Source of the DNA: a virus
DNA: 30,260 bases
Direction: 5' to 3' (one strand)
Virus record (IMG/VR): IMGVR_UViG_3300046501_000263
Coordinates: 1 to 30,260 of that record
The position numbers and the translations under genes are program-made. Positions 564 to 21,039 of the stretch are shown piece by piece (the first letter of the stretch is position 1; each line of letters starts with the position of its first letter). The notes under the pieces were generated by a model. That model saw only the letters and a program-made list of their open reading frames with translations. It was not told where the DNA came from and did no database searches.

Positions 564-779
564 ATGCCCCGCACCGACCGTTTCCTCGTGAGCGCCGACG
601 GCATGTTGGCCGACTGGTTCGCGACACCCAATGCGCCAGCCAACTGGCATGACTGCACCGACATGGGTGTGGAAGAGCTACAGCGATTCGTGGCCGAGCG
701 TCAGGCAGTGCGGCCGTACATCGTCGGCGTGGCGATGGGCGACCGCCTGTGCGGCGTCAGCGTGACCTGCCCGGAGTGA
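564..779 (+). CDS. Small hypothetical phage protein (71 aa)
   Basis: The ATG at 564 lies two bases after the previous stop and is preceded by GAGG (552-555) within the end of that gene, so the two genes are probably translated together. The product is 71 aa, slightly acidic, with several Trp, Cys and Met residues (DWFATP, NWHDCTDMG) and a hydrophobic stretch near the C-terminus (PYIVGVAMG) too short to call a membrane segment. I do not recognise the family. Support comes from operon position, ribosome binding site and tight packing. Confidence 0.6.
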   Translation: MPRTDRFLVSADGMLADWFATPNAPANWHDCTDMGVEELQRFVAERQAVRPYIVGVAMGDRLCGVSVTCPE

Positions 780-784
780 CGGCC

Positions 785-1393
785 ATGCTCTTTCCAACCA
801 CTAGCCGTGACTGGGACGGTGTTTGCCTTGTAGGGCAGCTCGTCGGTCTGCGTCTGCAGCCGGATGCGGACGGGAAGATCAGCGTGATGGTGATCGGACT
901 CCCGGAGATCACCGGTCTCAACCAAGATTGTCGGTTGTCGTCGTGCGACGAACTGCCTTCGTTCGCTCCCGCCGAAATCCATGTGCACGACACGCGCCTG
1001 GAGTGCTTCGGTGCTAATCCACTCGCGCCGGTCCTGAGGACTGGGTTCACGCTCGAGCTTGAGCCAGGGATGGCACCGCTGCTGCGCATATGGCTGGCGA
1101 GGCTGGTGGTCGTCGCTACGGCATCCAAGACGATCGCAGACAAGTTCAGCGCACAGCTGCCGCCCCCGATCTACCACATGTTTGGCGCGATCACGTCGGT
1201 CGTCGCGCGGATCGTGCTGGACGGCTGGGAAGCTGAGCATTCGGTCGCGTACGAGCGTGAGCACGGTATTTGGTCCAGGGAACGTGAGTTCATGGCCCAG
1301 TTCGATGCGGAAGACGTGGGCCGGAATCTGCGCGCTTTGGCCACCGCACCGGTCCGCGAGGATCAGCAACGAAACCACCAGGAGCACCCATGA
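785..1393 (+). CDS. Hypothetical phage protein (202 aa)
   Basis: I choose the ATG at 785, which follows a GGAG overlapping the stop of the preceding gene. The start at 749 would overlap that gene by 31 bases and lacks such a site. The N-terminal half looks beta-rich (GQLVGLRLQPD, ISVMVIGLPEIT). The middle has a leucine-rich hydrophobic stretch (LLRIWLARLVVVATA) and the C-terminal third is charged and helical. The gene ends in an ATGA overlap with the next. No family is recognised; an early accessory protein is the most that can be said. Confidence 0.6.
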   Translation: MLFPTTSRDWDGVCLVGQLVGLRLQPDADGKISVMVIGLPEITGLNQDCRLSSCDELPSFAPAEIHVHDTRLECFGANPLAPVLRTGFTLELEPGMAPLLRIWLARLVVVATASKTIADKFSAQLPPPIYHMFGAITSVVARIVLDGWEAEHSVAYEREHGIWSREREFMAQFDAEDVGRNLRALATAPVREDQQRNHQEHP

Positions 1394-1728
1394 CCACCCA
1401 TGCAAACCCCTTGGCGCCCTTGATGATCGAGGCCCAGCAGATCGTCTGCGCAGCCAACGCCACGTTTTCCGACAAGCGTGCCGCCATCAAGCGCCTGTCC
1501 GACCTGCTGTGCACGCCGCAGGCCAACCTCGCTTTGGCGCACGCCGATGCGCACGTTGACAAGAAGGTGGCGGAGGCGCGCGCCGCCTTCGTGCCCGCGC
1601 TGGAGGCGGCCGAGCACAAGCTGGGCGAGCTGCGCCCGCACCACGAGGGCACGCAGGGCATGTCGATCGACCGCGTGCTGGTGAACGTGCGCACCGCGCT
1701 GCACCTGGCCCGGGAGGGCGCGCGATGA
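1390..1728 (+). CDS. Hypothetical helical phage protein (112 aa)
   Basis: The start codon shares ATGA with the stop of the upstream gene (1390-1393), and its own stop shares ATGA with the next gene (1725-1728), the usual sign of coupled translation. The protein is Ala/Leu/His-rich and predicted mostly alpha-helical (EAQQIVCAAN, KKVAEARAAFVPALEAAEHK). No catalytic or metal-binding motif is visible and the family is not recognised. Confidence 0.6.
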   Translation: MTTHANPLAPLMIEAQQIVCAANATFSDKRAAIKRLSDLLCTPQANLALAHADAHVDKKVAEARAAFVPALEAAEHKLGELRPHHEGTQGMSIDRVLVNVRTALHLAREGAR

Positions 1729-2972: not shown

Positions 2973-3755
2973 ATGAGCACCGCCGAGCAGAAGCCCATCA
3001 AGCTTCCCCTATGTAACCGCGGCCTGCGCCCGATTGAGGATCTCGCAGCCAACCGCGAACACGGCGATCGCCTGCGCTACAGGGCCGGCTGCCGTTGCTT
3101 CGCCTGCCGCAGCGCGAACACCGCATATGAAGCATCCAGGAAGGTCGCCCGTGCGGCCGGGAACTGGAACGGACTCGTCTCCGCAGAGAAGGCGCGCGCG
3201 CACCTGAAGACGCTGTCCGCGCAGGGCGTAGGACGGCGTTCTGTTCGTGCGGCAAGCGACGTGGCCGATACCGTGCTGGCCGACATCATATCTGGGCGCA
3301 AAACGAATATCCGCGCGGCGACCGAGCGCGCCATCTTGGCGGTGACGGCCGCCGCCGCGGGCGATGGCGCCCTGGTGCCGGGTAAAGCCACCTGGAAGAT
3401 GCTCGACCAGCTGATCGCTGACGGCTACACCCGGAGGTACCTGGCCGTAAAGCTCGGCAGCAAAAGCAAGGTTCCACAGTTGCAGCTTAAACGCGACTTT
3501 GTCACCGTGCGCAGCGCGTATTTGGTCGAGCGGCTGTTCGAGCAGCTGAAATGCGAGTGCGCCAAGCCCACCATGCGGCTTGTGGCGAAACTGCGGGACG
3601 AGGGCTACACGCAGCATCAGGTCGAGCAGCGCCTTGCGATGCTGGCCGAGAAGCTCGGCGAGCCGGTGCCGTCGATCGAGCCGAACAAAAGAGGAAGGAT
3701 CAGCACGAAAGCGGCTGATCTCGTGGAGCGACTTTATCAAGAACTGACCGCCTAA
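2973..3755 (+). CDS. Zinc-finger-like, HTH-repeat phage protein (260 aa)
   Basis: The ATG at 2973 has GAGGA at 2964-2968. Near the N-terminus His30, Cys40, Cys42 and Cys45 form a compact possible metal site (HGDRLRYRAGCRCFAC), a motif frequent in phage proteins of unknown role. The rest appears built from repeated units. DQLIADGYTRRYLAVKL and AKLRDEGYTQHQVEQRL align as two HTH-like segments. AYLVERLFEQL and ADLVERLYQEL align as the start of another unit, which the stop codon truncates. Nucleic-acid binding is likely. The exact function is unknown. Confidence 0.65.
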   Translation: MSTAEQKPIKLPLCNRGLRPIEDLAANREHGDRLRYRAGCRCFACRSANTAYEASRKVARAAGNWNGLVSAEKARAHLKTLSAQGVGRRSVRAASDVADTVLADIISGRKTNIRAATERAILAVTAAAAGDGALVPGKATWKMLDQLIADGYTRRYLAVKLGSKSKVPQLQLKRDFVTVRSAYLVERLFEQLKCECAKPTMRLVAKLRDEGYTQHQVEQRLAMLAEKLGEPVPSIEPNKRGRISTKAADLVERLYQELTA

Positions 3756-3759
3756 AATC

Positions 3760-4665
3760 ATGAGCGAAAATAGCAAAATCGAGTGGACGGACCACACCTT
3801 CAATCCCTGGGAAGGCTGTCAGAAGGTTGGCCCGGGCTGCGACCACTGCTACGCCGAGACGCGTAACGCGCGCTTCGCCGGCGGCCAGGCCGTGAACTGG
3901 GGTCCGGGCGCACCGCGGCGCCGCACCAGCACCTCCAACTGGCGCAAGCCGCTGGCCTGGAACGCGGCGCACGCCGAGTTCTTCGCCCAGCACGGCCGCC
4001 GTCAGCGCGTGTTCTGCGCCAGCCTGGCCGACGTTTTCGACAACGCGGTTCCCGACGAATGGCGCGCGGACTTGTTCACGCTCATCGAGCAGACGCCGAA
4101 TCTCGACTGGCTGCTGCTGACGAAGCGGATCGGCAACGCGGGCAACATGCTGCCGGTGCCGTTTGACTTCGACCGCCTGTATCCGAACGTATTGCTGGGC
4201 GCGTCGATCGTGACGCGACCCGAAATGCTTCGCGACGCGCCGAAGCTGAAGGCCGCAGGGGCTCGCGTTACCTTCTGGAGCGTAGAGCCGATGCTGGAAG
4301 ACCTGGGCGAGATCCCGCGCGAGCTGATGCCGGACTGGGTCATCGTAGGCGGCGAAAGCGGCCCGGGCGCCCGCCCGATGCATCCGGACTGGGTGCGTAA
4401 CCTCCATTACCAGTGCAAGGTGGCCGGCGTGCCGTTCCTGTTCAAGCAGTGGGGTGAATGGACGCCGGGCGTGAATGTGTCGCGACAGTCCGGCATCGTC
4501 GACACGGCAACCTGGTTTGCCAACGGTTGGACGTTCGACCGAGAGAACCTGGCGAGCTGGGGGCATGCCGACGACGAGCCGGACCTGTACCGGATCGGCA
4601 AGAAAGCCGCCGGCCGCCGGCTCGACGGCGTGCAGCACACCAATTTCCCAGAGACGCAACGATGA
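3760..4665 (+). CDS. Phage Gp37/Gp68 family protein (DUF5131), Cys-cluster protein (301 aa)
   Basis: The sequence opens with WTDHTFNPWEGC and carries Cys20, Cys27 and Cys30 (C-x6-C-x2-C-Y), the hallmark of the Gp37/Gp68 (DUF5131) family. Further typical segments are FCASLADVFD, DWLLLTKR, FWSVEPML, VIVGGESGPGARPM and FLFKQWGEW. The Cys trio and a TIM-barrel-like succession of strands suggest an iron-sulfur, radical-SAM-related enzyme, but the family's reaction is not established to my knowledge. No Shine-Dalgarno sequence precedes the ATG at 3760. The upstream stop is four bases away, so translation may restart from the previous gene. The stop overlaps the next start. Confidence 0.85.
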   Translation: MSENSKIEWTDHTFNPWEGCQKVGPGCDHCYAETRNARFAGGQAVNWGPGAPRRRTSTSNWRKPLAWNAAHAEFFAQHGRRQRVFCASLADVFDNAVPDEWRADLFTLIEQTPNLDWLLLTKRIGNAGNMLPVPFDFDRLYPNVLLGASIVTRPEMLRDAPKLKAAGARVTFWSVEPMLEDLGEIPRELMPDWVIVGGESGPGARPMHPDWVRNLHYQCKVAGVPFLFKQWGEWTPGVNVSRQSGIVDTATWFANGWTFDRENLASWGHADDEPDLYRIGKKAAGRRLDGVQHTNFPETQR

Positions 4666-5426
4666 ACCAACTCACCGACATCAAGCTCGACGCCATCCGC
4701 CTGAAGCTCCTGGCTACCGTGCTCGAGCTGCAGCAGTACACCAGCACCGCAGCGAACGTGATCCCGATCCTGGGCAGCGAGCGCGTGATCGCGATCGGCA
4801 CCGCGGCCGAGGTGGCCGGTCTGGTGAAGCAAGAACACGCCGGCGCAGCGCCGAGCGCCGACTTCGCCACCTGGCTGAAGCAGCACCCCGAGCTGCGCGG
4901 ATTCACCATCGGCGCGAAAGGGGGGCTGGTGTGGATTGCTGCCCAGCAGGCCAGGGCGCCGGCAGCGCAGGCCATCGATGCGCGGAGCGAATCGGCATCA
5001 ATGACCATGGACGAGGCTATCGACCTGCTGCGCGACGCGCTGGAGCACTACAACCACTTGGCTCCTAACACGATCACGGCGCGAGAAGCGCTGCGCCTGA
5101 CCGCCAATATCACGGACAGCGGTTCTGTGGCGGCTGATGCTGCCGTACCGCTCGACGTACTGCACCGCGCACTGGATCGGGCTGGTATCCACGTCGCGCG
5201 CACGCTGGTCGATGAGTGCTTCACCGACGTGTGGGGCAAGGCCGGGGCCGCGCCGGCGGCTGCCGCAGGTGATGTGCGAGATGCGGCGCGGGCCCGCGAC
5301 CACAACAGCCAGAATCCGGATTGCTCTTGCCCGAGCGGGAACGGAAGCCTGCGGTGGCCCTGCCCAGTGCATCCGCCTGAGCGCGCTGCCATATTCCAGC
5401 AGACATCCCAGGGAGATAAAGCGTGA
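4662..5426 (+). CDS. Hypothetical phage protein with C-terminal Cys/His motif (254 aa)
   Basis: The start at 4662 shares ATGA with the Gp37/Gp68 gene. The frame is open further upstream but would lie wholly inside that gene. Residues 1-50 are helical. A segment near residues 66-90 (ATWLKQHPELRGFTIGAKGG) reads as a small alpha/beta unit. A Met/Asp-rich helix follows (TMDEAIDLLRDALEHY). The C-terminal DCSCPSGNGSLRWPCPVHPP places Cys221, Cys223, Cys234 and His237 as a possible metal site. That tail is a recurrent signature in proteobacterial phage proteins. No reaction can be assigned. GTGA overlap links it to the next gene. Confidence 0.65.
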   Translation: MNQLTDIKLDAIRLKLLATVLELQQYTSTAANVIPILGSERVIAIGTAAEVAGLVKQEHAGAAPSADFATWLKQHPELRGFTIGAKGGLVWIAAQQARAPAAQAIDARSESASMTMDEAIDLLRDALEHYNHLAPNTITAREALRLTANITDSGSVAADAAVPLDVLHRALDRAGIHVARTLVDECFTDVWGKAGAAPAAAAGDVRDAARARDHNSQNPDCSCPSGNGSLRWPCPVHPPERAAIFQQTSQGDKA

Positions 5427-6170: not shown

Positions 6171-6359
6171 ATGTCAGGAACGAAACAAGCAATCCAGTCG
6201 CGGTACGTCACCCTGCAGGAGTGGGCGGCCATGATGTTTTCAAAGGTGCCGCACGAGAACACGCTGCGCCGGTGGGTGCACGACGGGCACATCCAGCCGC
6301 AGCCGAAAAAAGTGGGGAAGGCATGGCAAGTAAAGCGCGACGCGCAGTATGTGGGGTGA
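6171..6359 (+). CDS. xis: Excisionase, lambda Xis-like (62 aa)
   Basis: The product (SRYVTLQEWAAMM, ENTLRRWVHDGHIQPQP, KKVGKAWQVKRDAQYV) follows lambda Xis closely along its DNA-binding winged helix (TLQEW, TxRRWVR, IxPxPxKxGR in lambda). Xis bends the arm of attP and steers integrase towards excision. Two ATG codons lie in tandem at 6168 and 6171. AGGAG at 6160-6164 is better spaced for the second, which I adopt; the first adds one Met. The lambda protein has a longer C-terminal tail. int follows immediately, so the two are co-transcribed. Confidence 0.85.
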   Translation: MSGTKQAIQSRYVTLQEWAAMMFSKVPHENTLRRWVHDGHIQPQPKKVGKAWQVKRDAQYVG

Positions 6360-6360
6360 T

Positions 6361-7461
6361 ATGGGCCGAAGAAGGCTAGCAAAGAATCGGGCGCTGCCGC
6401 CCAATCTGTACGTGAACCCGGCCGGGTACTACTACTACCGGGATCCCGAGAGGAAAACCCAGAAGGGGCTCGGCAGCGACCGGGCCGCGGCCATCCAGGC
6501 GGCGCGGGCGGCCAATGCGGCCCTTGCCACGCGCGAGGCCTCATCGCTCGTCGACTGGGTCCTCGGCCGCACCGACTACACCCTGGCCAGCTGGCTGCCG
6601 GTGTACCGCGAACTGTGGGAGGCGAAGACGGAACCGGCCGACAACACCCTTGCTGGGGCGAAGAGCCTTCTCAAGCGGCTCGGCGCCTCGGACTTCGCGA
6701 AGATGCGCATGCGGCACATCGAGACGGTGCACGTGGCGACCTTTCTGGAGGAGTTCACGAAAGCCAGCGGGACGGGGGCGGCGCACAACATGCGATCGCG
6801 GTTGAGCGATATCTTCAGGTGGGCGGAAACGCAAGGCGTGATCGAGGTCGGCAAAAACCCGGTAGCAGCGACGTTCACCCCCGGCTACAAGGTCAAGCGC
6901 GAGCGGTTGAGCCTGGAGCAGTTTTGGAAGATCCACGCGGAAGCGTCGGCATGGGCCAAGAACGCGATGATGCTGGCCCTGGTCACAGCCCAGCGGCGCG
7001 ACGACATCGCGAACATGAAGTTTGCCGACTACAAGGACGGGTACCTCCATGTGGCCCAGGGCAAGTCGGCTGGCGAGACGAAGCTGCAGCTGGACGGCGC
7101 GATCAAGCTGGCCAAGGTGGGCGTTTCTATCGGGGAAGCGGTGACCGGGTGTCGCGACCTGATCGTGAGCCGGCACCTGGTGCACCACACGGAGCGCTCT
7201 CAAAAGACCAAGCCGGGTGATCCGGTGAGGGCGTCGATGATCTCGATGGCATTCCAGCGGGCGCGCGAGAAGGCGAAAATTGAAGCGTCCGAGGGGCGTA
7301 CGCCGCCGACCTTTCACGAGATCCGCAGCTTGTCGGAACGCCTCTACCGCGAGGAGTTTGGAGCGGATTTCGCGCAGGCGATGCTCGGGCACAAGAGCGC
7401 GCAGATGACCTCGAAATACGACGATTTGCGAGGCGGCTGGAAGACGATTAAGGCGAAGTGA
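6361..7461 (+). CDS. int: Site-specific tyrosine integrase, lambda family (366 aa)
   Basis: It catalyses recombination between attP and attB. The start at 6361 gives MGRRR followed by LPPNLYVNPAGYYYYRDP, matching the arm-binding N-terminus of lambda and HK022 integrases; an in-frame ATG at 6349 would add four residues inside xis. All catalytic residues are present: Arg212 (TAQRRDD), Lys235 (AQGKSAG), His319 and Arg322 (FHEIR), His344 (LGHKS) and Tyr353 (SKYDD). Arg212 and Lys235 carry the same numbers as in lambda Int, and the later four keep lambda spacing. Length is close to lambda Int (356). Its attP target probably lies directly downstream. Confidence 0.95.
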   Translation: MGRRRLAKNRALPPNLYVNPAGYYYYRDPERKTQKGLGSDRAAAIQAARAANAALATREASSLVDWVLGRTDYTLASWLPVYRELWEAKTEPADNTLAGAKSLLKRLGASDFAKMRMRHIETVHVATFLEEFTKASGTGAAHNMRSRLSDIFRWAETQGVIEVGKNPVAATFTPGYKVKRERLSLEQFWKIHAEASAWAKNAMMLALVTAQRRDDIANMKFADYKDGYLHVAQGKSAGETKLQLDGAIKLAKVGVSIGEAVTGCRDLIVSRHLVHHTERSQKTKPGDPVRASMISMAFQRAREKAKIEASEGRTPPTFHEIRSLSERLYREEFGADFAQAMLGHKSAQMTSKYDDLRGGWKTIKAK

Positions 7462-7733: not shown

Positions 7734-7979
7734 ATGGCGTCCATGACTACCAATCGACCAAATACCGAACTTGCTGCCGCCGTCGACCAAGCCCTAGTCA
7801 AGGCCGAGATCGAGGGCGTCCAGACCGCTGCCGCCTTCCTGGTGGCGAGCGGCGCCGGGTTCGCACTCACTTGCCGAGTGCTTACCGAGCCGGCGCGGCG
7901 CCGGCCTGCTCAGCCAGGCCCTGCGGCCGCTTCATCTCTCGAACGTGCCGGCCGATCCGCTGGAACGGCTTCTCGATGA
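7734..7979 (+). CDS. Small hypothetical protein, convergent and overlapping with the acyltransferase (81 aa)
   Basis: The frame opens at ATG 7734 (or ATG 7743) with no strong ribosome binding site. Residues up to about 54 look like a real small helical protein (AAAVDQALVKAEIEGVQTAA and GFALTCRVLTEPARRR). The remainder reads antisense through the last 98 bases of the acyltransferase gene and looks like shadow sequence. The 3' end may therefore have been replaced at a mosaic junction near 7885-7900. It could be a degraded or host-derived gene next to attP. I do not assign a function. Confidence 0.35.
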   Translation: MASMTTNRPNTELAAAVDQALVKAEIEGVQTAAAFLVASGAGFALTCRVLTEPARRRPAQPGPAAASSLERAGRSAGTASR

Positions 7980-8919
7980 GGTAGTAGGAAGCCGTCGCCG
8001 CCAGTAGCGTGCTGCTTACGATCCAGAGTGCGCTGATCGCCTCATCGTTACCGAAGAACGAGATCGCCAGCGGGTGTAGCAGGTAGACCGAATAGCTGAT
8101 CGTGCCCAGGAACACCAGGGTCGCCGGCATCGTCTTGGCGCGTTCGAAGCACAGGAACAGGCCCACGGCCAGGGTATAGGCCAGGGCCCAGCGGTACGGA
8201 TTGTCGCCGGCGCCATGGCTGTAGCCCAGCATGCAGACACCGACCAGGCTGACCAAGAGCACGGCGATGCGGCGCAGCGGGAGGAATTCGCCAGCCAGTC
8301 GGGCCAGACGCAGCTCGGCGCCGAAGAACATCAGCATCAGGGCGATGGGCAGGGCGACAGGCAGCTTCAGCCCGGTGACGAAGCGGGCCGCCGCCATCAG
8401 CAGAGCCAGCACAACGCTCAGGGCGAACGCGGCACGCATCGCCTTGCGGTCGTGCACGACGCCCAGCAGCAGCATGCCGGACACGGTGAAGTAGAAGAGT
8501 AGTTCGATTTGCAGCGTCCAGAACACGCCGAGCGCATTGGGCACGCCGATGAACTGCTGCAGCATGGTGAAGTTGAGCAGCACCTCGGCCGCGCTGAGTT
8601 TCGCCGTCTCCTCGGCACCCATGAGCACCGCCAGCAGGATAGCGACGATGTATAACGGCCAGAGACGGAAGAGGCGGGAGATCCAGAAGGACGACAGCGT
8701 CGATTGCGGGCCGATGCTGAGCGGGATGATGTAGCCGCTGATCAGGAAGAAGGCGGCGACGCCGACGCGGCCCGGGGCGAGGTAGAGGATGTCGGTGAAC
8801 AGCGGGCTGCTGTGGCCAATCCAGTGCAGCGGTACGATGTGCTGCGCCAGGACAAGAAGCGCGGCGATGCCCCGCAGCGCGTCGAGTCCCTGCATCCTCG
8901 TAGTCTTGGAATGGTCCAT
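7882..8919 (-). CDS. Acyltransferase 3 family membrane protein, probable O-antigen acetylase (345 aa)
   Basis: The protein has about ten hydrophobic segments and the markers of the acyltransferase 3 family (PF01757): GLDALRGIAALLVLAQH near the N-terminus (Arg16, His27), FWTLQIELLFYF mid-protein and SYSVYLLHP near the C-terminus. Such inner-membrane enzymes transfer acyl groups to surface polysaccharide. Phage Sf6 oac sits in the same place, between the tail genes and attP, and changes the host O-antigen so that related phages no longer bind. Substrate and conversion role are inference. No strong ribosome binding site is seen before 8919; an in-frame ATG eight codons downstream is possible. 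Confidence 0.8.
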   Translation of the reverse strand: MDHSKTTRMQGLDALRGIAALLVLAQHIVPLHWIGHSSPLFTDILYLAPGRVGVAAFFLISGYIIPLSIGPQSTLSSFWISRLFRLWPLYIVAILLAVLMGAEETAKLSAAEVLLNFTMLQQFIGVPNALGVFWTLQIELLFYFTVSGMLLLGVVHDRKAMRAAFALSVVLALLMAAARFVTGLKLPVALPIALMLMFFGAELRLARLAGEFLPLRRIAVLLVSLVGVCMLGYSHGAGDNPYRWALAYTLAVGLFLCFERAKTMPATLVFLGTISYSVYLLHPLAISFFGNDEAISALWIVSSTLLAATASYYLIEKPFQRIGRHVREMKRPQGLAEQAGAAPAR

Positions 8920-12070: not shown

Positions 12071-12508
12071 CTAATATCCGGTCGCTTCCCATGTGAAGCG
12101 CTTTGCTGCATTGGTGGTGCCGGCACCCGAGCTGTAGACCGTGACCTGGTCGACGGCCAGTTCGCCGTGTGCGAAAGTGATGCCGCTGGCTTCGGTCACG
12201 CCGGTTTCCTCGCATTTAAGGGCCACGCAACGTGTCTTGAACTGCAAAGGGAACGTAATCACCACGACCCCTGATTCGTCCGTCGCTGCGGCTCCCCACT
12301 GGCGGGTAAAGCCGCCGGGGAAGACTTGGTAGCCGTCCTCGCCGAGCGACTGGTTCTTCCCAGTGAAGTCTGCAAGGCCTATCAGATTGGCCGAGAAGCC
12401 GCCCACGCGATCGAACAGCTGCTGGAAGTAGTTGAGCCATGTGCGCGAGAACATGCCGGTCCGCGGGTCCACGGCCGGTTCGCGAGATGATGGGGGCGTC
12501 AGCTTCAC
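12071..12508 (-). CDS. Tail fibre / gp53-like tail protein (145 aa)
   Basis: The start is GTG at 12508, overlapping the upstream stop (GTGA). The N-terminus (EPAVDPRTGMFSRTWLNYFQQLFDRVGG) is the short virion-attachment segment often seen in podovirus and siphovirus tail proteins. The C-terminal part (GYQVFPGGFTRQWG, VITFPLQFKTRC, VTVYSSGAG) matches the gp53-like C-terminal fold of tail fibres. It sits after the gp10-like gene, where P22 encodes its tail needle gp26, but has no long coiled coil, so it is a fibre-like protein rather than a needle. Confidence 0.7.
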   Translation of the reverse strand: MKLTPPSSREPAVDPRTGMFSRTWLNYFQQLFDRVGGFSANLIGLADFTGKNQSLGEDGYQVFPGGFTRQWGAAATDESGVVVITFPLQFKTRCVALKCEETGVTEASGITFAHGELAVDQVTVYSSGAGTTNAAKRFTWEATGY

Positions 12509-13929
12509 GATGCGCCCAACCTTACCTGCGCCGAGCCCCCGAGCAGCACGACCTTGACCGGGTCACTGATCGTCAGCCGGAAGACCCTGCTGCGGCTGCG
12601 CCCCAGGCGCCGCCAGATCGCCCGGGCGTTGTAGTTGCCGACCGAACCGATCGAGCGCGCGTGCTGATTGCTCCAGACCATGGCCTTGTCCGACCACTCA
12701 AGCACCGCCTGCGGGTCGCTACCCTGGCCGGACTGCAGACCGACGCCCGACTCGAGCTCGACCTGCACCGAGTCGAAGTGCATGTGGTGCGATTCCGGGT
12801 TGGCTATATAGCCGGTCACGCGGATCCGCGGCAACGGTGCACCGTTGTCGGTATAGCAGTCCATGTCGAGCGCGTACAGGTTGCCGTTCTCCCAGTCGCC
12901 CACCACGTGCTGGCCCGTGAAAGCGATATGGCAGATCGAGCGGTGTCGGTTCAGGCTGCCGGTGCCCGGGTTGCGCCACAGGCGCTCGTGCCACTGGCCA
13001 GTCGCGGCGTCGAACACCCATGTGGCGTTAGCGCTCGGGAAGGACAGGACATAGAACGTATGGCCCTCATTCTCGTAGGCGTAGGCAATGGCGTCCCTGA
13101 CCGTCGCGTACTGCGAGATGGCGTAGTCGATAGCCTCGGTCGAGATGCGCGCAGGCTGGTAGCCCTGTGCCCGGAACACCGCCAGCGATCCGGAATCGTC
13201 GGCCCCAAGCCAGATCAACGAGTTGTCCATGCGCGCCACCGACCACGGCGCCGAGCAGCCAACCTGAATCGACGTCGAGGTGCGCGTGAGCGGGAAGTCG
13301 GCGTCGCCAGAGTTCACCCAGATCTCGATGTTGTTCCTCTTGAAGAACCAGATCTCGCGGTGGTCGACGATGTGCCGCACGATCGGGTCGGCCGTTCCTT
13401 CAACGCTGGCGAAGTCCAGCGCATCGAAGGTCGCGGCGAACAGGCCAGAGATGTAAAACTGGGCTGTGCCCGGCTTGTTGAAGATGAAGTAGCCGTCGAG
13501 GTAGGCAACCCAGTTGGCGCCGTAGAAGGCCTCGTCAACGATCTGCTTCAGGGTGTTGTCGGCCAGGGTCAGGCTGTAGCCATTAGCGCCGTCGACGATC
13601 ACCGCGACCTTGCCGTTGTCGGCGATCGACACCGGGCCGGTGGAGGTGGCCAGCGTGCCGACCAGAGTCACGCCCCAGGCGGCATTGATCCGGAAGACCG
13701 ACGAGCCTTGCACCACGATCGGATCACCGACCGACGTCGGGTACATGCCACGGATGCCGCCGGTGCCGGGCAGGGCCAGCAGCAGCCGTAGGCCGGGCGT
13801 GCCGTACATGGCCGTCACCGTGCGCGCGCCGCCGCTCTGGTCGACCACCGGGAACAGGTTGATGCTGCGCTGAGCGTCCATACCTCGGGACCGAAGGGCA
13901 TAGGCGCCGCCTACAAATGGAATCTGCAT
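12505..13929 (-). CDS. P22 gp10-like tail hub / packaged-DNA stabilisation protein (474 aa)
   Basis: The length is close to P22 gp10 (472 aa). The N-terminus (QIPFVGGAYALRSRGMDAQR, INLFPVVD, YGTPGLRLL) and later segments (HREIWFFKRNNIEIW, TSTSIQVGCSAPWSV, NEGHTFYVLSFPSANATWVF, GQWHERLW, DWENGNLYALD) are characteristic of the family. The protein closes the portal after packaging and forms part of the tail hub to which spikes attach. In P22 it directly follows gp4; here it follows the ejection-protein genes, so the order is rearranged while the function is probably kept. Confidence 0.85.
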   Translation of the reverse strand: MQIPFVGGAYALRSRGMDAQRSINLFPVVDQSGGARTVTAMYGTPGLRLLLALPGTGGIRGMYPTSVGDPIVVQGSSVFRINAAWGVTLVGTLATSTGPVSIADNGKVAVIVDGANGYSLTLADNTLKQIVDEAFYGANWVAYLDGYFIFNKPGTAQFYISGLFAATFDALDFASVEGTADPIVRHIVDHREIWFFKRNNIEIWVNSGDADFPLTRTSTSIQVGCSAPWSVARMDNSLIWLGADDSGSLAVFRAQGYQPARISTEAIDYAISQYATVRDAIAYAYENEGHTFYVLSFPSANATWVFDAATGQWHERLWRNPGTGSLNRHRSICHIAFTGQHVVGDWENGNLYALDMDCYTDNGAPLPRIRVTGYIANPESHHMHFDSVQVELESGVGLQSGQGSDPQAVLEWSDKAMVWSNQHARSIGSVGNYNARAIWRRLGRSRSRVFRLTISDPVKVVLLGGSAQVRLGAS

Positions 13930-13989: not shown

Positions 13990-16026
13990 CTACTGCCTGG
14001 GCAGCTGCTGCGCCGGCAGCGCCGGTGTCGCCAGGCCGGCGCCAAGCTCAGCGCCCAGCACGCCGACGCCGTTCGACAGCAGCATGTTGCGGTTGTTGAT
14101 GCTTTGGATCAGCGGGGCCAGGCTGTTCAGCGTCTGCGCGCCGTCGTTGCCGCGGGACAGCAGCAGGTTGCCCATCTGGTCGCGCACGGCCTGGGGAACC
14201 GCGACGCGATTCCAGGCGTTCCTGGCCGCGCCGAGCGCCGTGAGCAGGTTGCCGGTCTTGGCGGCACCGACCGCGGCCCCGGCGTCCGACAGCGCCGACA
14301 TGTCGAGGTCGCCCATGCCGGCCTGGCGCGCCGCGGTCTGCGAGCCGACGCCGACGCTCTGCAGCCGCTTGAGCGTTGCCTCGCGCGCGACGTCGGCCGC
14401 GAACTGGCGGTAGGCGCGTGGGCTGCCGAAAATCGCCTGCAGCTTCTCCTGCGTCGACGGCTCCTTCCACATGTTCATGATGTTGGTCTGGCCGCCCTGG
14501 GTGCCCAGCTTGTTGCGCAGTCCTTCATAGGCACCGATCCGGAACGCCTCGCGCTCGATGTCGGTCATCCCCTTCATCGTGCTCAGGATGCTGGACTCGT
14601 CACGATCGATCGCCAGCCGGCCGGCGCGCGCTGCGTCGATCAGGCCTGACGGTGTGGCGAACGCCTGGCGGGCCTGCCGGTAGAGCGAAGCGCCGGTCTG
14701 AGGGTTGCTCGTGACCTGGTCGAGTTCGCCGATCAGCGCGTTCTTCAGCTGCTGATACGATTCGCCCAGCGGCGTCAGCTTGCCGTCGGGGTTCAGCGCC
14801 TTGCGGCTCGACAGCACCTGGTCGAGGCCCTGCTTGACGTGGTCCAGGTCGCCCATGTTCCAGCGCGACGGCTGGGCCGCATCCAGCGTGAACGGCATTT
14901 GGCGCGCCGTGGCGATCTCGCGGCCGAGCTTGGTCACACCCAGTTCGTCGGCTGCCTTGACGATCGCCTCGAGCTGCGGGCTTGGGGCCACGTCGATCTG
15001 GCGCAGCTGGTTGTACAGCGGCGCCGAGTCCTGCTGGCGGCGCGTGAACAGCGCCTGGACGGTCGTGTCCAGCCGCTGTCCCTGGGTGCCGAGCGCCTGG
15101 TCGGCGGCCTGGCGCATCCGGTCGCCCACGCCGGCGGTGCGCTGGCGTTGCACGTTGAAGACGGCTTCCTTCGTGCGGCCGGGCAGGGTCGCCAGCGTGT
15201 CCAGCAGCTGGTTCGTGTTGCGCCCGCCGGCATCGGCCAGGACCGCTTCGTCGCCCAGTTTGGTAAAGCGTGCGGCGATCTGGGCCAGCGGGTTGGTATA
15301 GCCGCCGGTGGCCAGGGTGCCGCGCGCGTCGCGCGCCAGGGCCTCCGCGATCTTCTGCTTCGCGAATTCGACGGCTGCGGTGCCGGACAGGCGCTGCGCC
15401 GCATTGCGCCCGACTGCGGCGATGCCGGCGGTTACGGGCGTTGCCACGCCGCCCAGGGCTGCACTGGTGACGGCCGACTTTCCGGCATCTGCCAGCACGC
15501 CCTCGACCGTGTCGGCGGTCGAGTGGCCGACGCCGCCCAGGGCGCCGTAGCCGCCACCTACGGTGGCCGCGCGGACCGTACGGGCGCCGAGGCCGGCGAC
15601 GGCAGGTACGGCGCTCGACGTGCGCGCTGCCATTCCTGCCGCCGAGCCGGCGCCGCCCGTGGCCATCGCCAGAGGAATGGTGCCGGCGCCTTGGGCGACC
15701 GCGGTCAGGATCGGGCTGCGCTCGCGCTGCGCGTCTTCCATCCCGCGCAGCACATCGCGGTTTGCGATGTAGTTGGCCTGCAGGTCGGACGACGGGTTGC
15801 GGGCCTTGTCCCACACCGCGCCCAGGGCGCCGCCCAGTTCGTCGCCGAAGCCCATCAGGATCCCGTTCGTGCCTGCCACCAGGCCCTGTTCCCAGGCGGG
15901 CGCGGCTCGGCCGCGCTGGTAGTCCTTGCTCGTCGGTGCCTGCGCCGGTGCTGCCACCGGCTTGGCCGTGGCCGGATTGAAGCCACCCGGGCTGGCCGGC
16001 TTCGCGCTTGCGAGATCGAATGGCAT
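13990..16026 (-). CDS. Large ejection / internal virion protein, gp16-like (678 aa)
   Basis: A long Ala/Gly-rich protein with a Pro/Ala-rich N-terminus (about 1-40). A glycine-rich hydrophobic region follows (about 95-215: AGTIPLAMATGGAGSAAG, GGGYGALGGVGH). A long helical part comes next (about 225-640: REIATARQMPFTLDAAQPS, LKNALIGELDQV, KEPSTQEKLQAIFGSPRAYR). It matches phage proteins annotated as internal virion or DNA-injection proteins. Third of three consecutive genes in the P22 7-20-16 position, it is probably ejected to help DNA cross the envelope. The start overlaps the previous stop by one base (TGATG). Confidence 0.7.
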   Translation of the reverse strand: MPFDLASAKPASPGGFNPATAKPVAAPAQAPTSKDYQRGRAAPAWEQGLVAGTNGILMGFGDELGGALGAVWDKARNPSSDLQANYIANRDVLRGMEDAQRERSPILTAVAQGAGTIPLAMATGGAGSAAGMAARTSSAVPAVAGLGARTVRAATVGGGYGALGGVGHSTADTVEGVLADAGKSAVTSAALGGVATPVTAGIAAVGRNAAQRLSGTAAVEFAKQKIAEALARDARGTLATGGYTNPLAQIAARFTKLGDEAVLADAGGRNTNQLLDTLATLPGRTKEAVFNVQRQRTAGVGDRMRQAADQALGTQGQRLDTTVQALFTRRQQDSAPLYNQLRQIDVAPSPQLEAIVKAADELGVTKLGREIATARQMPFTLDAAQPSRWNMGDLDHVKQGLDQVLSSRKALNPDGKLTPLGESYQQLKNALIGELDQVTSNPQTGASLYRQARQAFATPSGLIDAARAGRLAIDRDESSILSTMKGMTDIEREAFRIGAYEGLRNKLGTQGGQTNIMNMWKEPSTQEKLQAIFGSPRAYRQFAADVAREATLKRLQSVGVGSQTAARQAGMGDLDMSALSDAGAAVGAAKTGNLLTALGAARNAWNRVAVPQAVRDQMGNLLLSRGNDGAQTLNSLAPLIQSINNRNMLLSNGVGVLGAELGAGLATPALPAQQLPRQ

Positions 16027-17402
16027 CAGTGCACCTCTTCGTATTGTTTGCCGTCAGGGCTGACGTACGCGCGGTTCCCGCCCGCGTCGACGTGCAGAGC
16101 CCAGCCTTTGCCGTTCGTCGCCGGCAGCGAAGGCTGGGCCGGCGCGGATGCCTGCGGCGCGGAAAATGCCGCGTGGCCGGCGTTGCTCTTCAAGCCCTGG
16201 ACGGCCAGCTGGCGGTTGGCCGCCTTCTGCTTGAGCACAGCCGCGCTGTCGCCGGGCTGCGGGAAGTACTGCTTCTTCGCATTGTCGAACTCGCCGGCGC
16301 CGATTGCTGCGCCGGATTCCTGGCGCAGCACGGCGTTGACGAAGTCGCGCTGCGCCTGGTCGGCACGCTGGCTGGCATCGCTCAGATTGGAGTTCCAGGC
16401 ATTCCCGAGCGCGCCGCCGACACCCCAGATGTCCGACACCGCGTTCTTGCCATTGATGCCGGCCGGGCTGTACTGACCTTCAAGGTCCGTCAGGATCCTG
16501 TTGGCCTGCTCTGCACGCGCGCCGAATGCGGCCGACTTGCCCTGGAACTCGGTCGGGGCCTTGTTGCTCTGATCGGCCGGGCCGCCTGGGATCGCGACCA
16601 GGGAGCCGTCGGCGTTCGCGCGGTAGCCGGACGGCACCTTGCCTTGGGCGAGCTGGTCACGGGCGCGCTGGTCGGTCAGGTCCTGGCCGCGCACGGTCGC
16701 CGCCACGGTTGCGGCATTGTTCGCGCGCGAGGTGGCGTTCGTGGCTGCATTGTTCGCCGCCGACGTCGCGTTCGTGGCCACGGTGTTGGCGTCAGGCCTG
16801 ATGAAGCCCATGCTGTCCTTCGCCTTCATCACTTGCTGCAGGGTGCCCAGTGCCCACTGATTCAGGCTTTTCGAATCGGCCGGCACGTCGTCCAGTTCGG
16901 CCAGCTTCGCCTGGTAGATCTCCGGCGAGATGACCTTGCTGTGGGCGGCCGCGGCTAGGCCGCTGCGGATCTGCTGCGGTGTCACGTTCGGGTTCTGCGC
17001 CCAGGATGCGGCCAACTGGCCAGCGATCTCGAACTGGTGCGCGGCGGCGTCCAAGCTGAGCTTGCTGGTGTCGGCCTGCGTCTTGGCGACGTCGGCTTGG
17101 CCCTTGTCCAGGTCCTGAAACGTCTTCAGCAAGCCCGGCACCTTGGAGCCCAGGCCGCCGGCCGCAGCATCACCAAGCAGCTTGTTGCGGTCCAGCTTGC
17201 CGTCGACGCCGGTCGCGCCCTTGTAGAGCTGGTTCAGCGCGTTAGTGTCGCTCACCTCGCGCTGCTTCTCGCCGAAGATCAGGTCCGCGAGCCGGTTCTG
17301 GTTCATGGCGGCCTGGGCCTGCTGGAACTGGCCGAACTGTTCCAGCGGATTGGCGATCTGGACCGACCTGATGCCCATGGCGATAGACGGATCGATTGGC
17401 AT
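16026..17402 (-). CDS. Ejection / internal virion protein, gp20-like (458 aa)
   Basis: It opens with IDPSIAMGIRSVQIANPLEQ and a Gln-rich helix (FGQFQQAQAAMNQNRLADLIFG), typical for phage ejection proteins. The middle carries an Asn/Ala/Thr-rich, near-repetitive helix (about 214-240, units like ATNATSAANNAAT). The C-terminal third contains a conserved-looking block (DFVNAVLRQESGAAIGAGEF, KQYFPQPGDS) also common in these proteins. AAGGGG precedes the ATG. Role inferred from gene order: it is assembled in the capsid and delivered with DNA. Confidence 0.7.
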   Translation of the reverse strand: MPIDPSIAMGIRSVQIANPLEQFGQFQQAQAAMNQNRLADLIFGEKQREVSDTNALNQLYKGATGVDGKLDRNKLLGDAAAGGLGSKVPGLLKTFQDLDKGQADVAKTQADTSKLSLDAAAHQFEIAGQLAASWAQNPNVTPQQIRSGLAAAAHSKVISPEIYQAKLAELDDVPADSKSLNQWALGTLQQVMKAKDSMGFIRPDANTVATNATSAANNAATNATSRANNAATVAATVRGQDLTDQRARDQLAQGKVPSGYRANADGSLVAIPGGPADQSNKAPTEFQGKSAAFGARAEQANRILTDLEGQYSPAGINGKNAVSDIWGVGGALGNAWNSNLSDASQRADQAQRDFVNAVLRQESGAAIGAGEFDNAKKQYFPQPGDSAAVLKQKAANRQLAVQGLKSNAGHAAFSAPQASAPAQPSLPATNGKGWALHVDAGGNRAYVSPDGKQYEEVH

Positions 17403-17411
17403 GGATGCCCC

Positions 17412-18158
17412 TTAAAACAGTGTGTTGTCGACGGTGCCGCGGCCCTGGCTGTTGAGTATGCCGAGCAGCTGGTTGCCCTGCTGGTAATTCATGTACTGCC
17501 CAATGCCGTTGTTGATTGCGTTCGCCGTGCCGGTGTAGGCCGATGCGCGCGCGTTGCCGGCGCCGGTCAGGTTGTTCTGGATCTGGCTCGACGCGTTCTG
17601 GCCGGCATTGGCGATCGTGCCGTATGCGCTCTGGCCGGCCTGGCCGATATTGTTCGCGGCGGTCTGGCCGACGCCTGCCAGCGAGGCCAGCCGGTTGAAG
17701 CCGTTGGTCTTCTCGGTGGTGAATCGGTTGAAGGCGTTGCCGAACTCGTCGGACGCAACACCCTGGCTGTAACGGGTCAACGCCTTCGCCGCGGCGCCGG
17801 ACAGCAGGCCACCGCGTGCGGCTGCGCTGCGCTCGATCGCCTGCGTGCCCTGGTCGAGCCGGAACTGGTAGCCCGGGTCGGCCTGGAAGTCGTCCATCGT
17901 GAACGATCGGTTGAACTCGCCGCCGGCCTGCGTGCCAGCTGTGAGCTGCGCCAGTGCGTTCTTGCCGGCGTCCAGCCAGGGCGCCTGGTCGGCGCGCTGC
18001 CGCTCGAGCAGGGCCAACTGGTCGGCGCGCGTCAGGTCGTACTGGCGTCCCGCCTCGCCGTTGGCGGCGTTCGCTGAGCTCGACTGCTTGTTCGCGGCCA
18101 TGTTGGAGCCAACCGCGCCAATGACTGCGCCTCCTACGACTGCTGCTGCTGCAACCAT
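17412..18158 (-). CDS. DNA transfer / ejection protein, gp7-like (248 aa)
   Basis: The N-terminus is a hydrophobic glycine-rich helix (AAAAVVGGAVIGAVGSNMAA) able to insert in membranes. DLTRADQLALLERQRADQAPWLDAG, DDFQADPGYQFRLDQG and AARGGLLSGAAAKALTRY follow, a set of motifs seen in proteobacterial podovirus proteins annotated as DNA transfer proteins. The C-terminal part is Asn/Gln/Ala-rich (IGQAGQSAYGTIANAGQN). It is the first and shortest of the three ejection genes, as in P22 (7-20-16). Function by homology pattern and gene order. Confidence 0.75.
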   Translation of the reverse strand: MVAAAAVVGGAVIGAVGSNMAANKQSSSANAANGEAGRQYDLTRADQLALLERQRADQAPWLDAGKNALAQLTAGTQAGGEFNRSFTMDDFQADPGYQFRLDQGTQAIERSAAARGGLLSGAAAKALTRYSQGVASDEFGNAFNRFTTEKTNGFNRLASLAGVGQTAANNIGQAGQSAYGTIANAGQNASSQIQNNLTGAGNARASAYTGTANAINNGIGQYMNYQQGNQLLGILNSQGRGTVDNTLF

Positions 18159-18161
18159 GAT

Positions 18162-18617
18162 TTATCCTCCCAGCCATTTGCTGTAGTAGGTTTCGACGGG
18201 CGCCGCGCCAATGCGCTTGAACAGCGCGCCGGCGTCGGCGTGGATCTTCGAGCCCATGAACCAGCGCTGCACACCGCGGCGCTTCAGCTCGGCCTCGACG
18301 AAGCGGAACATGCGCACACCCGCGCTGCCGGCGCGCTTGTCCTGGCGCACGTAGAAGATGTCCATCGTGCAGGTCAGGCAGGTCTCGTAGTGCAAACCCG
18401 GCGCGATGAAACCGATGAAGTAGCCGACCAGCTCCCCGGCGTCGCGCAGCGTGACGAACAGCAGGCCGCCAGCACGCTCGCGCTCGATGTAGATGTGGTA
18501 CTGCGGCTGCAGCGGCACCTTGTCCTGGTTTAGGGCCAGCTCGCGGTAGTGCAGCGGCAGCAGCACCTGCAGCTCGGCCAGGCGCTCTTCGAAAGATTCG
18601 GCGTGGCAGGTGATCAT
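18162..18617 (-). CDS. GNAT-fold acetyltransferase (151 aa)
   Basis: The ATG at 18617 overlaps the stop of the oxygenase gene (ATGA), so the two are translationally coupled. The fold is GNAT-like: ITCHAESFEERLAELQVLL, strands GLLFVTLRDAGELVGYFIGFI, a central strand with MDIFYVRQDKRAGSAGVRMF (acetyl-CoA-binding loop RQDKRAGSAG) and the C-terminal KRIGAAPVETYYSKWLG. Related proteins occur in the virion region of several podoviruses. The acceptor is unknown. It may modify a virion protein or a host target early in infection. Confidence 0.75.
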   Translation of the reverse strand: MITCHAESFEERLAELQVLLPLHYRELALNQDKVPLQPQYHIYIERERAGGLLFVTLRDAGELVGYFIGFIAPGLHYETCLTCTMDIFYVRQDKRAGSAGVRMFRFVEAELKRRGVQRWFMGSKIHADAGALFKRIGAAPVETYYSKWLGG

Positions 18618-19183
18618 CGCGAGGTCCTGATGTCGACGATCATGTGGATCCGGTCGTCCGCGCTGTTGTTGATGACCTCGTGCTCCTGGCTGTTGTCGAA
18701 CCACCAGATCTCGCCGGTCCCCATGTAGACCTGCTCGTCGCCGGCGCGGAACACGACGCCCGGCTGGCTCTGCAGCACAATGTGGAAGCGGCTGTAGTAC
18801 TCGGCGTGCGCCGGCGTATCGGCGTGGGGGGAGATCACGCCGCCCGGGGCGATCTTGTTGATCATGACGCGGCCCAGGCGCTCGCCGCCGACGTAGGCCA
18901 TCAGGTTCATCACCAGAGGACGCGCCTCGGGCAGCAGCTTGTAGGCCGGGTAGTCGACGCTCTCGTGCTGGTCGTAGGTGGTGACGTGCTTCTGCAGCTC
19001 CTCCTCGGTCTCGTGCACGGACTTGACCGGGAAGCGCAGCATGATCGACTCGATCTGGTTGAACGGCCCCTGCGGGTAGTCGCGCAGGTAGGTGTCCTCT
19101 TTCCAGAGACCGGGGCGGCGCTTGATCGCCAGCAGCAGCGGCATGATGTCGACGCCGGTGGTGATGCGTTGGAAATTCTTCAT
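18614..19183 (-). CDS. Fe(II)/2-oxoglutarate-dependent oxygenase, aspartyl/asparaginyl hydroxylase-like (189 aa)
   Basis: It carries the facial triad His120-x-Asp122 (ISPHADTP) and distal His168 (SQEHEV), with Arg178 ten residues after that His, the spacing of 2-oxoglutarate-binding Arg in aspartyl/asparaginyl beta-hydroxylases (PF05118). VMINKIAPGG before and GEIWWFDNS after the core also fit a jelly-roll oxygenase. It should hydroxylate a substrate using O2 and 2-oxoglutarate. The target is unknown; virion protein, host protein or small molecule are all possible. It is coupled by ATGA overlap to the GNAT gene and inserted between gp4-like and ejection genes. Confidence 0.8.
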   Translation of the reverse strand: MKNFQRITTGVDIMPLLLAIKRRPGLWKEDTYLRDYPQGPFNQIESIMLRFPVKSVHETEEELQKHVTTYDQHESVDYPAYKLLPEARPLVMNLMAYVGGERLGRVMINKIAPGGVISPHADTPAHAEYYSRFHIVLQSQPGVVFRAGDEQVYMGTGEIWWFDNSQEHEVINNSADDRIHMIVDIRTSR

Positions 19184-19201: not shown

Positions 19202-19615
19202 TTATTCGTCGTCGCAGCCCACGCCATACGACCGCCGGGGTAGCAGCGGGCACGGCACCTTCAGTTCGGGTATCACCAGGTTCGCGCGCTTGAGCGTCTT
19301 GCGCGCCTGGACGGCCAGCCGGATGATGTCGCCGCGCGCTGGCAACGAGAACACGGTCGGCAGCACCTCGGCCAGTGAATAGCGCAGCGCTGGCTCGTAG
19401 AGCGCCGGCAGGGTGAGGGTGTCGGCGAGGCCTGCGAACGGGGCCAGCACGAACGGCGCCGACGGCACGCACGCCGGGATCACCTGCCACTGCACAATGA
19501 TGTCGTTCAGCGCGGCCAGTGCGTCGGCGGCATCCTCGGCCGGCGCCGTCTCGCCAGCCGCGATCACGCCGGCGTCCTTCAGCGCCCGGTTGATGATGTC
19601 GCCGACGGTGGTCAT
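19202..19615 (-). CDS. P22 gp4-like head-completion / tail accessory protein (137 aa)
   Basis: The N-terminus (TTVGDIINRALKDAGVI followed by an acidic stretch and DALAALNDIIVQWQ) is the typical helix pair of gp4-like tail accessory factors, which bind beneath the portal after packaging. The centre (YEPALRYSLAEVLPTVF) matches the usual second helix pair. P22 gp4 is somewhat longer (166 aa) and has muramidase activity; no such activity can be inferred here. The start overlaps the stop of the upstream small gene (ATGA). Confidence 0.75.
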   Translation of the reverse strand: MTTVGDIINRALKDAGVIAAGETAPAEDAADALAALNDIIVQWQVIPACVPSAPFVLAPFAGLADTLTLPALYEPALRYSLAEVLPTVFSLPARGDIIRLAVQARKTLKRANLVIPELKVPCPLLPRRSYGVGCDDE

Positions 19616-19821: not shown

Positions 19822-21039
19822 TTACTCGGTGATGCGGACGGCGTGATCCGGGCGGACGGCAGCGAAGCCGTACAGCACGTCGATACGGGTCGACTCGGTG
19901 TCGGACTTGCCGTCACCGAAGGTCATCACGCGCACCGAGAAGCCGTTCACCGACGCGGTGTAGCCCTCGCACGAAGCAAGAACCGGCAGCGGAGCGAAGG
20001 CGGCGGTGAAGGCATCCTTGTGGAAGCCCAGTTCCTGGCGGTACGCAGTCGATGCGGTACCGACCAGCGCGACGGCCTGGCCGTTGCCGGGCAGGGCCGA
20101 CACGGTACCGATCACGGACTGGCTGGTGACCGACAGGGCCGGGTAGATGCCGATCGAGCCGGTGGCGCCGCCAGCGGTGAAGTCGGCGGTCACGACGAAC
20201 TGGCGCAGCTTGCCGTTCGAGACGCCCAGGATCGGGTGCACGGCGAAGACGCCCGGGATGGTGAAGACCGTGCCCTTCAGGATGGTCTGGCCACCGGTCA
20301 GGTTACCGATGTTCAGCGTGCCACCGGTCTGCCCCGCGCCGTTGATCGTGAAGCCGGTCGCGGTGCCCATGGCGAACATCGGCAGCGACTGGTTCTCGTA
20401 CATATCGAACATCTGCGCGCGCGTGATGTAACCTTCCTTGAACGCCTTGTTCCCGGTGTCGGTCGGGTTCTGCTGGTTCTTGATCGCGTCAGCCAGTTCA
20501 GTGCTCGCGTCCGAGCTGAGCAGGACCGTGCGGTCGCCGCCGGGTGCCAGGAAGCGCTCCAGCGCGCCTTTGGCCTGGCCGTAGGTCTTGAAGGTGTTCG
20601 GCAGGGTGCCCGGCGTGCCGACGACGTTCGGCGTGGCGACGACGGCACGCTGGATCAGGTCGGCCTGCACGACCGAGGCCAGGCTGTTCATCGCCGGCTT
20701 CAGGAAGCGGGTCTTGAAGTCACTGATCGACAGCGCCTTTTCCTTCGCAGTGAAGGTCAGCGGCACGTGCTTTTGCGTGAGCAGCTGCAGGCGCACTTTC
20801 TGCTCGGCTTGGCCCGGGGCGTCGCCGCCGCCGGCGAAGTTGGCGCCGTCGTACACGGTCGGCACCGGCGGGATGCCGATATCGACGAAGTCGCCCTTCT
20901 TGTAGCCGTTCGGCTGGTCCTTGAATTCTTCCTCGCGGCCGCGGTTGATGTTCGAGAGGAAGTTAGCTTCCTCGGCCAGCATGGCGGCAGCTTCGCGGGC
21001 CAGCATCTGGTGGGTGAGAACTTGGTTCTGGGTAGGCAT
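19822..21039 (-). CDS. Major coat protein, P22 gp5-like (405 aa)
   Basis: The opening (PTQNQVLTHQMLAREAAAML, NFLSNINRGREEEF) and the following GDFVDIGIPPVPTVYDG, then QKHVPLTFTAKEKALS, are the recognisable start of the P22 coat family, which has an HK97-like fold with an inserted domain. Later parts (VLLSSDASTELADAI, FKEGYITRAQMFDMYENQSLPMF, LGFHKDAFTAAFAPLP) agree. P22 coat is 430 aa, so this one is similar in length. It forms the T=7-type capsid with the scaffolding protein encoded directly upstream. Confidence 0.9.
   Translation of the reverse strand: MPTQNQVLTHQMLAREAAAMLAEEANFLSNINRGREEEFKDQPNGYKKGDFVDIGIPPVPTVYDGANFAGGGDAPGQAEQKVRLQLLTQKHVPLTFTAKEKALSISDFKTRFLKPAMNSLASVVQADLIQRAVVATPNVVGTPGTLPNTFKTYGQAKGALERFLAPGGDRTVLLSSDASTELADAIKNQQNPTDTGNKAFKEGYITRAQMFDMYENQSLPMFAMGTATGFTINGAGQTGGTLNIGNLTGGQTILKGTVFTIPGVFAVHPILGVSNGKLRQFVVTADFTAGGATGSIGIYPALSVTSQSVIGTVSALPGNGQAVALVGTASTAYRQELGFHKDAFTAAFAPLPVLASCEGYTASVNGFSVRVMTFGDGKSDTESTRIDVLYGFAAVRPDHAVRITE

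Follow-up and report, generated by a model that had tools for sequence, protein, structure and literature searches.

A conserved, coupled oxygenase-acetyltransferase gene pair beside the ejection genes of short-tailed phages and its possible role in virion-protein modification

We found that a 2-oxoglutarate (2OG)/Fe(II) oxygenase gene and a GNAT-family acetyltransferase gene, located in the late block of a viral DNA stretch of 30,260 nucleotides (hereafter, the window), belong to a conserved and coupled late module that may modify virion proteins, with the ejection proteins as the first candidates. The pairing itself is well supported; the proposed role, which is predicted from sequence, we favor only tentatively, our confidence falling a little short of even. 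Gene content suggests that the window derives from a short-tailed phage, probably temperate because it carries an integrase gene, and the P22-type late genes for TerL, portal, scaffold, coat and a gp10-like protein were present (Table 1). The initial annotation had reported both open reading frames, the ATGA common to them and their location between gp4-like and ejection genes, and our reanalysis agreed on each point, with phrog_637 matched upstream and phrog_598 downstream. Elsewhere in the window, a gene on the minus strand (7882-8919) encodes an O-antigen-type O-acetyltransferase (phrog_3333, 1.3e-42) and is likely a lysogenic conversion gene.

Table 1. Coordinates of the late genes of the window and of alternative proteins found directly before the ejection gene in other loci
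Locus	Feature	Coordinates	Strand	Basis
Window	Integrase	6349-7461		
Window	gp10-like head closure Hc3, here downstream of ejection genes	12505..13929	-	phrog_578 9.5e-133
Window	Third ejection-type protein, gp16 position	13990..16026	-	Position; phrog_5880 1.8e-41 (function not annotated)
Window	Second ejection-type protein, gp20 position	16026..17402	-	Order; conserved with ej1 in related loci; phrog_35431 7.9e-08 (function not annotated)
Window	P22 gp7-like DNA ejection protein (ej1), directly downstream of GNAT	17412..18158	-	phrog_598 8.7e-37
Window	GNAT-family acetyltransferase, 151 aa, P22 gene-14 slot	18162..18617	-	phrog_1249 'acetyltransferase' 6.5e-12
Window	ATGA stop/start overlap, oxygenase/GNAT	18614..18617	-	Read from sequence
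Window	Asp_Arg_Hydrox-type (AspH/LpxO/proline hydroxylase) 2OG/Fe(II) oxygenase, 189 aa	18614..19183	-	PF05118 9.6e-18
Window	gp4-like head-tail adaptor, upstream of oxygenase	19202..19615	-	phrog_637 head-tail adaptor Ad3 1.8e-10
Window	Coat protein, P22-type	19822..21039	-	PF11651 1.3e-27
L075	Cupin-like slot protein, probably misannotated	4390-4884		
L228	Cupin-like slot protein, probably misannotated	4270-4746		
L237, L247, L258	Cupin-like slot proteins, probably misannotated			
L073 (Rhodoferax phage P26218)	Fusion of cupin-like N-terminus and SET-like C-terminus, directly before ejection gene	4015-4890		
L074	Fusion of cupin-like N-terminus and SET-like C-terminus, directly before ejection gene	613-1497		
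L212	Radical SAM protein with HMPTM-type zinc ribbon, directly before ejection gene	3676-4854		

With the oxygenase as query, viral contigs yielded 67 loci, and in nearly all of these contigs a GNAT gene and then an ejection gene followed. The reciprocal scan with the GNAT gave 181 candidates, and the oxygenase was present in all 80 of the best 80 that were kept, 44 of which lay on contigs outside the oxygenase scan. The order oxygenase, GNAT, ejection gene was thus recorded in 118 locus entries, so that looking for this pair elsewhere, as the initial annotation had proposed, had a positive outcome, and 21 further entries stop at the GNAT, where the contig ends or the ejection gene was unrecognised; these 118 and 21 entries are not all independent, since many contigs were reached by both scans and some nearly duplicate one another. 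The 4-base stop/start overlap was retained in 42 of the 56 homologous pairs measured. Furthermore, dN/dS against close relatives was about 0.04-0.25 for the oxygenase and GNAT alike, and both genes are under purifying selection; taken together with a gene order conserved in more than 100 loci, these values argue that the pair is not a chance arrangement. Related loci were also detected in five bacterial genomes (Massilia, Janthinobacterium, Acinetobacter, Rhodanobacter and Dyella), where they are apparently prophages.

Two departures from the common architecture were observed among the homologous loci. At L007:3740-4198, about 457 bases separate the oxygenase from the GNAT, unlike in nearly all relatives. 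At L056, L057 (6001-6597) and L116, the last a Dyella jiangningensis prophage, the oxygenase gene contains two in-frame TAG codons at positions where its relatives encode Gln, and the other late genes of L056 and L057 also appear broken under translation table 11, so in these phages TAG is probably translated as Gln.

The predicted oxygenase matched Asp_Arg_Hydrox (PF05118) at 64.9 bits, above the curated cutoff of 22.6. The four key residues named in the initial annotation, comprising the Fe(II) triad HxD...H (His120, Asp122, His168) and the 2OG-binding Arg178, were invariant in all 47 sequences of a homologue alignment that reaches down to ~30% identity, and, because the full set of iron and 2OG residues is kept, the protein is expected to be catalytic. 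Its AlphaFold2 model (pLDDT 92) matched the fold of 2OG oxygenases, the best PDB matches being 4p7w (cis-4-proline hydroxylase), 7v4f, 1e5r and AspH, and its nearest neighbors by function being L-proline cis-4-hydroxylase, a nucleoside-antibiotic hydroxylase, proline 3-hydroxylase and AspH. Since these structures include hydroxylases of free amino acids (4p7w and 1e5r) together with the protein hydroxylase AspH, the fold does not imply a protein substrate.

The partner was assigned to the GNAT family by its homologues and its fold. The window protein scored slightly below the Pfam cutoff for Acetyltransf_1 (E 0.0014; 19.3 bits against 20.7), and 41 of 43 homologues match this family. The AlphaFold2 model (pLDDT 94) matched GNAT folds. 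Nearest to it were GNATs encoded by phage VpV262 and roseophage CRP-4, together with aminoglycoside and ribosomal-protein acetyltransferases, the latter two groups being its best PDB matches. Around the CoA and catalytic strands, E26, Y66 and R95 were invariant in all 43 GNATs and D86 was conserved in at least 90% of them. The CoA loop reads RAGSAG in the window, compared with the classical R/QxxGxG/A and with RGAGAG in homologues such as L044.

Oxygenase distances correlated with GNAT distances across loci, with a Mantel r of 0.81 that was reached in none of 999 permutations. In ten loci, the oxygenase was on average ~60% identical to the others and the GNAT only 39%; the L031 oxygenase is 73% identical to that of the window, its GNAT 37%, and L066 carries a different GNAT at the same place, again with an ATGA overlap. 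In Limnohabitans phage DC33, the pair lies between the portal gene and a terminase-like gene whose product is 29% identical to the podovirus terminase annotated in L079 (E 4e-17), away from the ejection genes; in Pseudomonas phage PfAn1, it directly precedes the ejection gene. From the ten loci, L031, L066 and DC33, we infer that partners swap and the unit relocates while the oxygenase-GNAT partnership persists, and by these sequence comparisons the pairing goes beyond shared descent. In L243-L245 and L250, a cupin-like protein follows the oxygenase instead of a GNAT.

The initial annotation had contrasted the window with P22, which was said to encode only structural proteins at this position. 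This contrast fails, because P22 gene 14 (151 aa, 'head morphogenesis'), an assembly gene, fills the slot directly before gene 7, T7 gene 13 directly precedes gene 14, and Zobellviridae place a GNAT in the same slot. Since P22 gp14 fills it, the GNAT is best viewed as the slot occupant and the oxygenase as the added gene. A survey of 55 loci found via gp10, 18 of which were not readable, recovered oxygenase plus GNAT in 8, oxygenase plus cupin in 4, cupin in 8, A8 GNAT in 6, GNAT alone in 2 and none of these types in 9. Among loci with a readable ejection gene, matches to the GNAT, A8-GNAT and cupin families were confined to the slot, and two oxygenase matches fell outside it. The gp10 proteins closest to that of the window, those of L215 and L228 (both 89% identical), belong to phages without the oxygenase, which is therefore dispensable; the L215 slot holds a short protein that is GNAT-like by eye, and the L228 slot a cupin-like protein. 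Such variation of slot occupants among related phages indicates that the module is both dispensable and exchangeable.

Among 27 non-standard slot proteins, a Pfam scan detected five matches to Acetyltransf_3 (best 1.7e-7), five to DUF2824, the family of gp14 (best 7.4e-5), and three to Cupin_2; judging from the counts alone, the two sets of five would be the same proteins. One alternative slot protein is named 'tail fiber adhesin' or 'short tail fiber' after phrog_24280/12032; we rejected this name in favor of a cupin-like identity, given that its profile matched PDB cupins (best 5e-4) and that Cupin_2 was matched by three of the 27 proteins. In the cupin-SET-like fusion, the SET-like motifs NHSPNPSA and GDEVTIDY were read by eye; the SET match of Rhodoferax P26218 gp30 was weak (Pfam E 0.015), and a PDB profile search with this domain returned no match. 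The slots of L203, L204, L210 and L213 appear by eye to hold non-enzymatic proteins. A broader reading of these occupants, which we regard as doubtful, is that the gene-14/13 position is a swappable protein-modification slot of short-tailed phages, in which lineages place a GNAT, oxygenase plus GNAT, oxygenase plus cupin, a cupin-SET-like fusion or a radical SAM protein that would chemically modify the ejection machinery; if this is true, the modification perhaps matches the host envelope or escapes exclusion.

For the oxygenase-GNAT pair itself, modification of virion proteins is the likeliest role, because the families stay in the assembly-factor slot beside the ejection genes. Both enzymes would be made late with the virion genes, as co-orientation and overlap suggest; the initial annotation had reasoned likewise, and the overlap, the late-block position and the conserved adjacency to ejection genes make this a sound expectation. 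The GNAT takes the assembly-factor position of P22 gene 14 and T7 gene 13, with the oxygenase joining as its partner, and the two would act on co-expressed phage proteins during particle assembly, adjacent ejection proteins first, the GNAT acetylating amino groups and the oxygenase hydroxylating a side chain. The module is exchangeable, the slot of related phages being filled by cupin-like proteins or by modifying proteins of another kind. Late co-expression, catalysis, a protein substrate and an ejection-protein target are all elements that we infer, and the absence of the oxygenase from close relatives, together with the position of the DC33 pair, counts against a virion-protein role, as do the RAGSAG loop of the window GNAT and the free amino-acid hydroxylases among the nearest solved oxygenases. 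A further point against this role is that no residue separating oxygenase-positive from oxygenase-negative phages was found in ej1, ej2, gp10, coat or adaptor.

The targets might instead be proteins, lipid A or metabolites of the host, modified by the enzymes at a late stage of infection, for instance through LpxO-like lipid hydroxylation or ribosomal-protein or antibiotic-like acetylation, the place of the two genes in the late operon being incidental. Genes of an accessory kind typically occupy variable arms or the ends of operons, whereas these families keep to one slot beside the ejection genes, that of the assembly genes gp14 and gp13, and we accordingly consider a host-directed function unlikely. 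It nevertheless draws on the lipid and free amino-acid hydroxylases within the Asp_Arg_Hydrox family, on the aminoglycoside and ribosomal-protein acetyltransferases matched by the GNAT model, on the variable presence of the pair in close relatives, as for accessory genes, and on a study of other phages that called their GNAT and their Asp hydroxylase auxiliary metabolic genes and did not treat them as a pair (PMC12195039).

We give somewhat less credence still to the idea that the GNAT, as a GNAT-fold protein of the gp14/gp13 type, mainly assists assembly of the ejection proteins or chaperones them, with catalysis secondary and the oxygenase tuning or partly replacing that role. P22 gp14 is annotated as a head morphogenesis or virion stability factor, PF11090 carries the name 'probable scaffold protein Gp13', the A8 slot GNATs are collinear with gp14 and five slot proteins match its DUF2824 family, and the slot proteins of L215 and L224 read as short and GNAT-like without a CoA loop; conservation around the CoA and catalytic strands of the GNAT argues the other way, as does an oxygenase whose intact iron and 2OG residues predict that it, at least, is catalytic. 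Highly improbable is the second option of the initial annotation, in which both enzymes are packaged, leave the particle together with the gp7/gp20/gp16-like proteins and act on a host target as the next infection begins. Adjacency to the ejection genes is the one argument for it; the gene order of other podoviruses suggests an assembly role over cargo, and compact folded globular enzymes would have to unfold for portal passage.

The preferred reading, that the pair modifies virion proteins, concerns an essentially unexplored activity: in the literature searched, we found no described case of a phage-encoded oxygenase modifying phage particle proteins, nor the conserved coupled pair, the exchange of GNAT partners or the wider slot pattern. 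Each part of the pair was already known, and the pair offers a widespread system that is open to testing, since isolates and prophages are available. The initial annotation had held that no such podovirus system was described, which stands insofar as the pair has not been described as one and gives way in that the genes themselves occur in two cultured phages. In PfAn1 (PV364321) and DC33 (PQ492659), the two genes lie side by side in the order found in the window, the oxygenase and GNAT being 57% and 56% identical to those of the window in PfAn1 and ~35% and 28% in DC33; there they are labelled just hypothetical or putative acetyltransferase, or, for ORF8, Asp/Asn hydroxylase (PMC12195039). 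DC33 (L003) is classed under Inoviridae despite a 39-kb genome and a head-tail connector gene, which is a taxonomy error.

With the AspH/LpxO/L-proline cis-4-hydroxylase family (PF05118), the window oxygenase shares the fold and the His-Asp-His/Arg site; it differs in being a single short domain, with no TPR or membrane part seen, and is ~15-22% identical to solved PF05118-type structures. P22 gp14 (DUF2824, PF11039) occupies the slot of the window GNAT before the gp7 ejection gene and has an equal length of 151 aa, but lacks an oxygenase partner. Direct hhalign comparison of the window GNAT family with gp14 gave no profile similarity, and gp14 had no acetyltransferase match in Pfam; the link is weak and transitive, running via a second GNAT family of the slot, the A8 GNATs (L198, L199, L217, L223 and L265), which are collinear with gp14 over ~125 residues at 10.1 bits. 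T7 gp13 (PF11090) directly precedes the internal virion protein genes, as the window GNAT precedes the ejection genes, and profile similarity between the two was undetectable. We therefore rejected a direct homology between either protein and the window GNAT; by sequence, P22 gp14 is probably GNAT-derived, and a link between T7 gp13 and GNATs had been proposed earlier for roseophages (PMC6775973). The slot proteins of Zobellviridae and roseophages (VpV262, CRP-4 and Vibrio 1.253.O) are clear GNATs with a fold highly similar to that of the window GNAT, the oxygenase being absent from every Zobellviridae locus examined. These comparisons would place P22 gene 14, and perhaps T7 gene 13, both long-unexplained assembly genes, among the GNAT-fold proteins.
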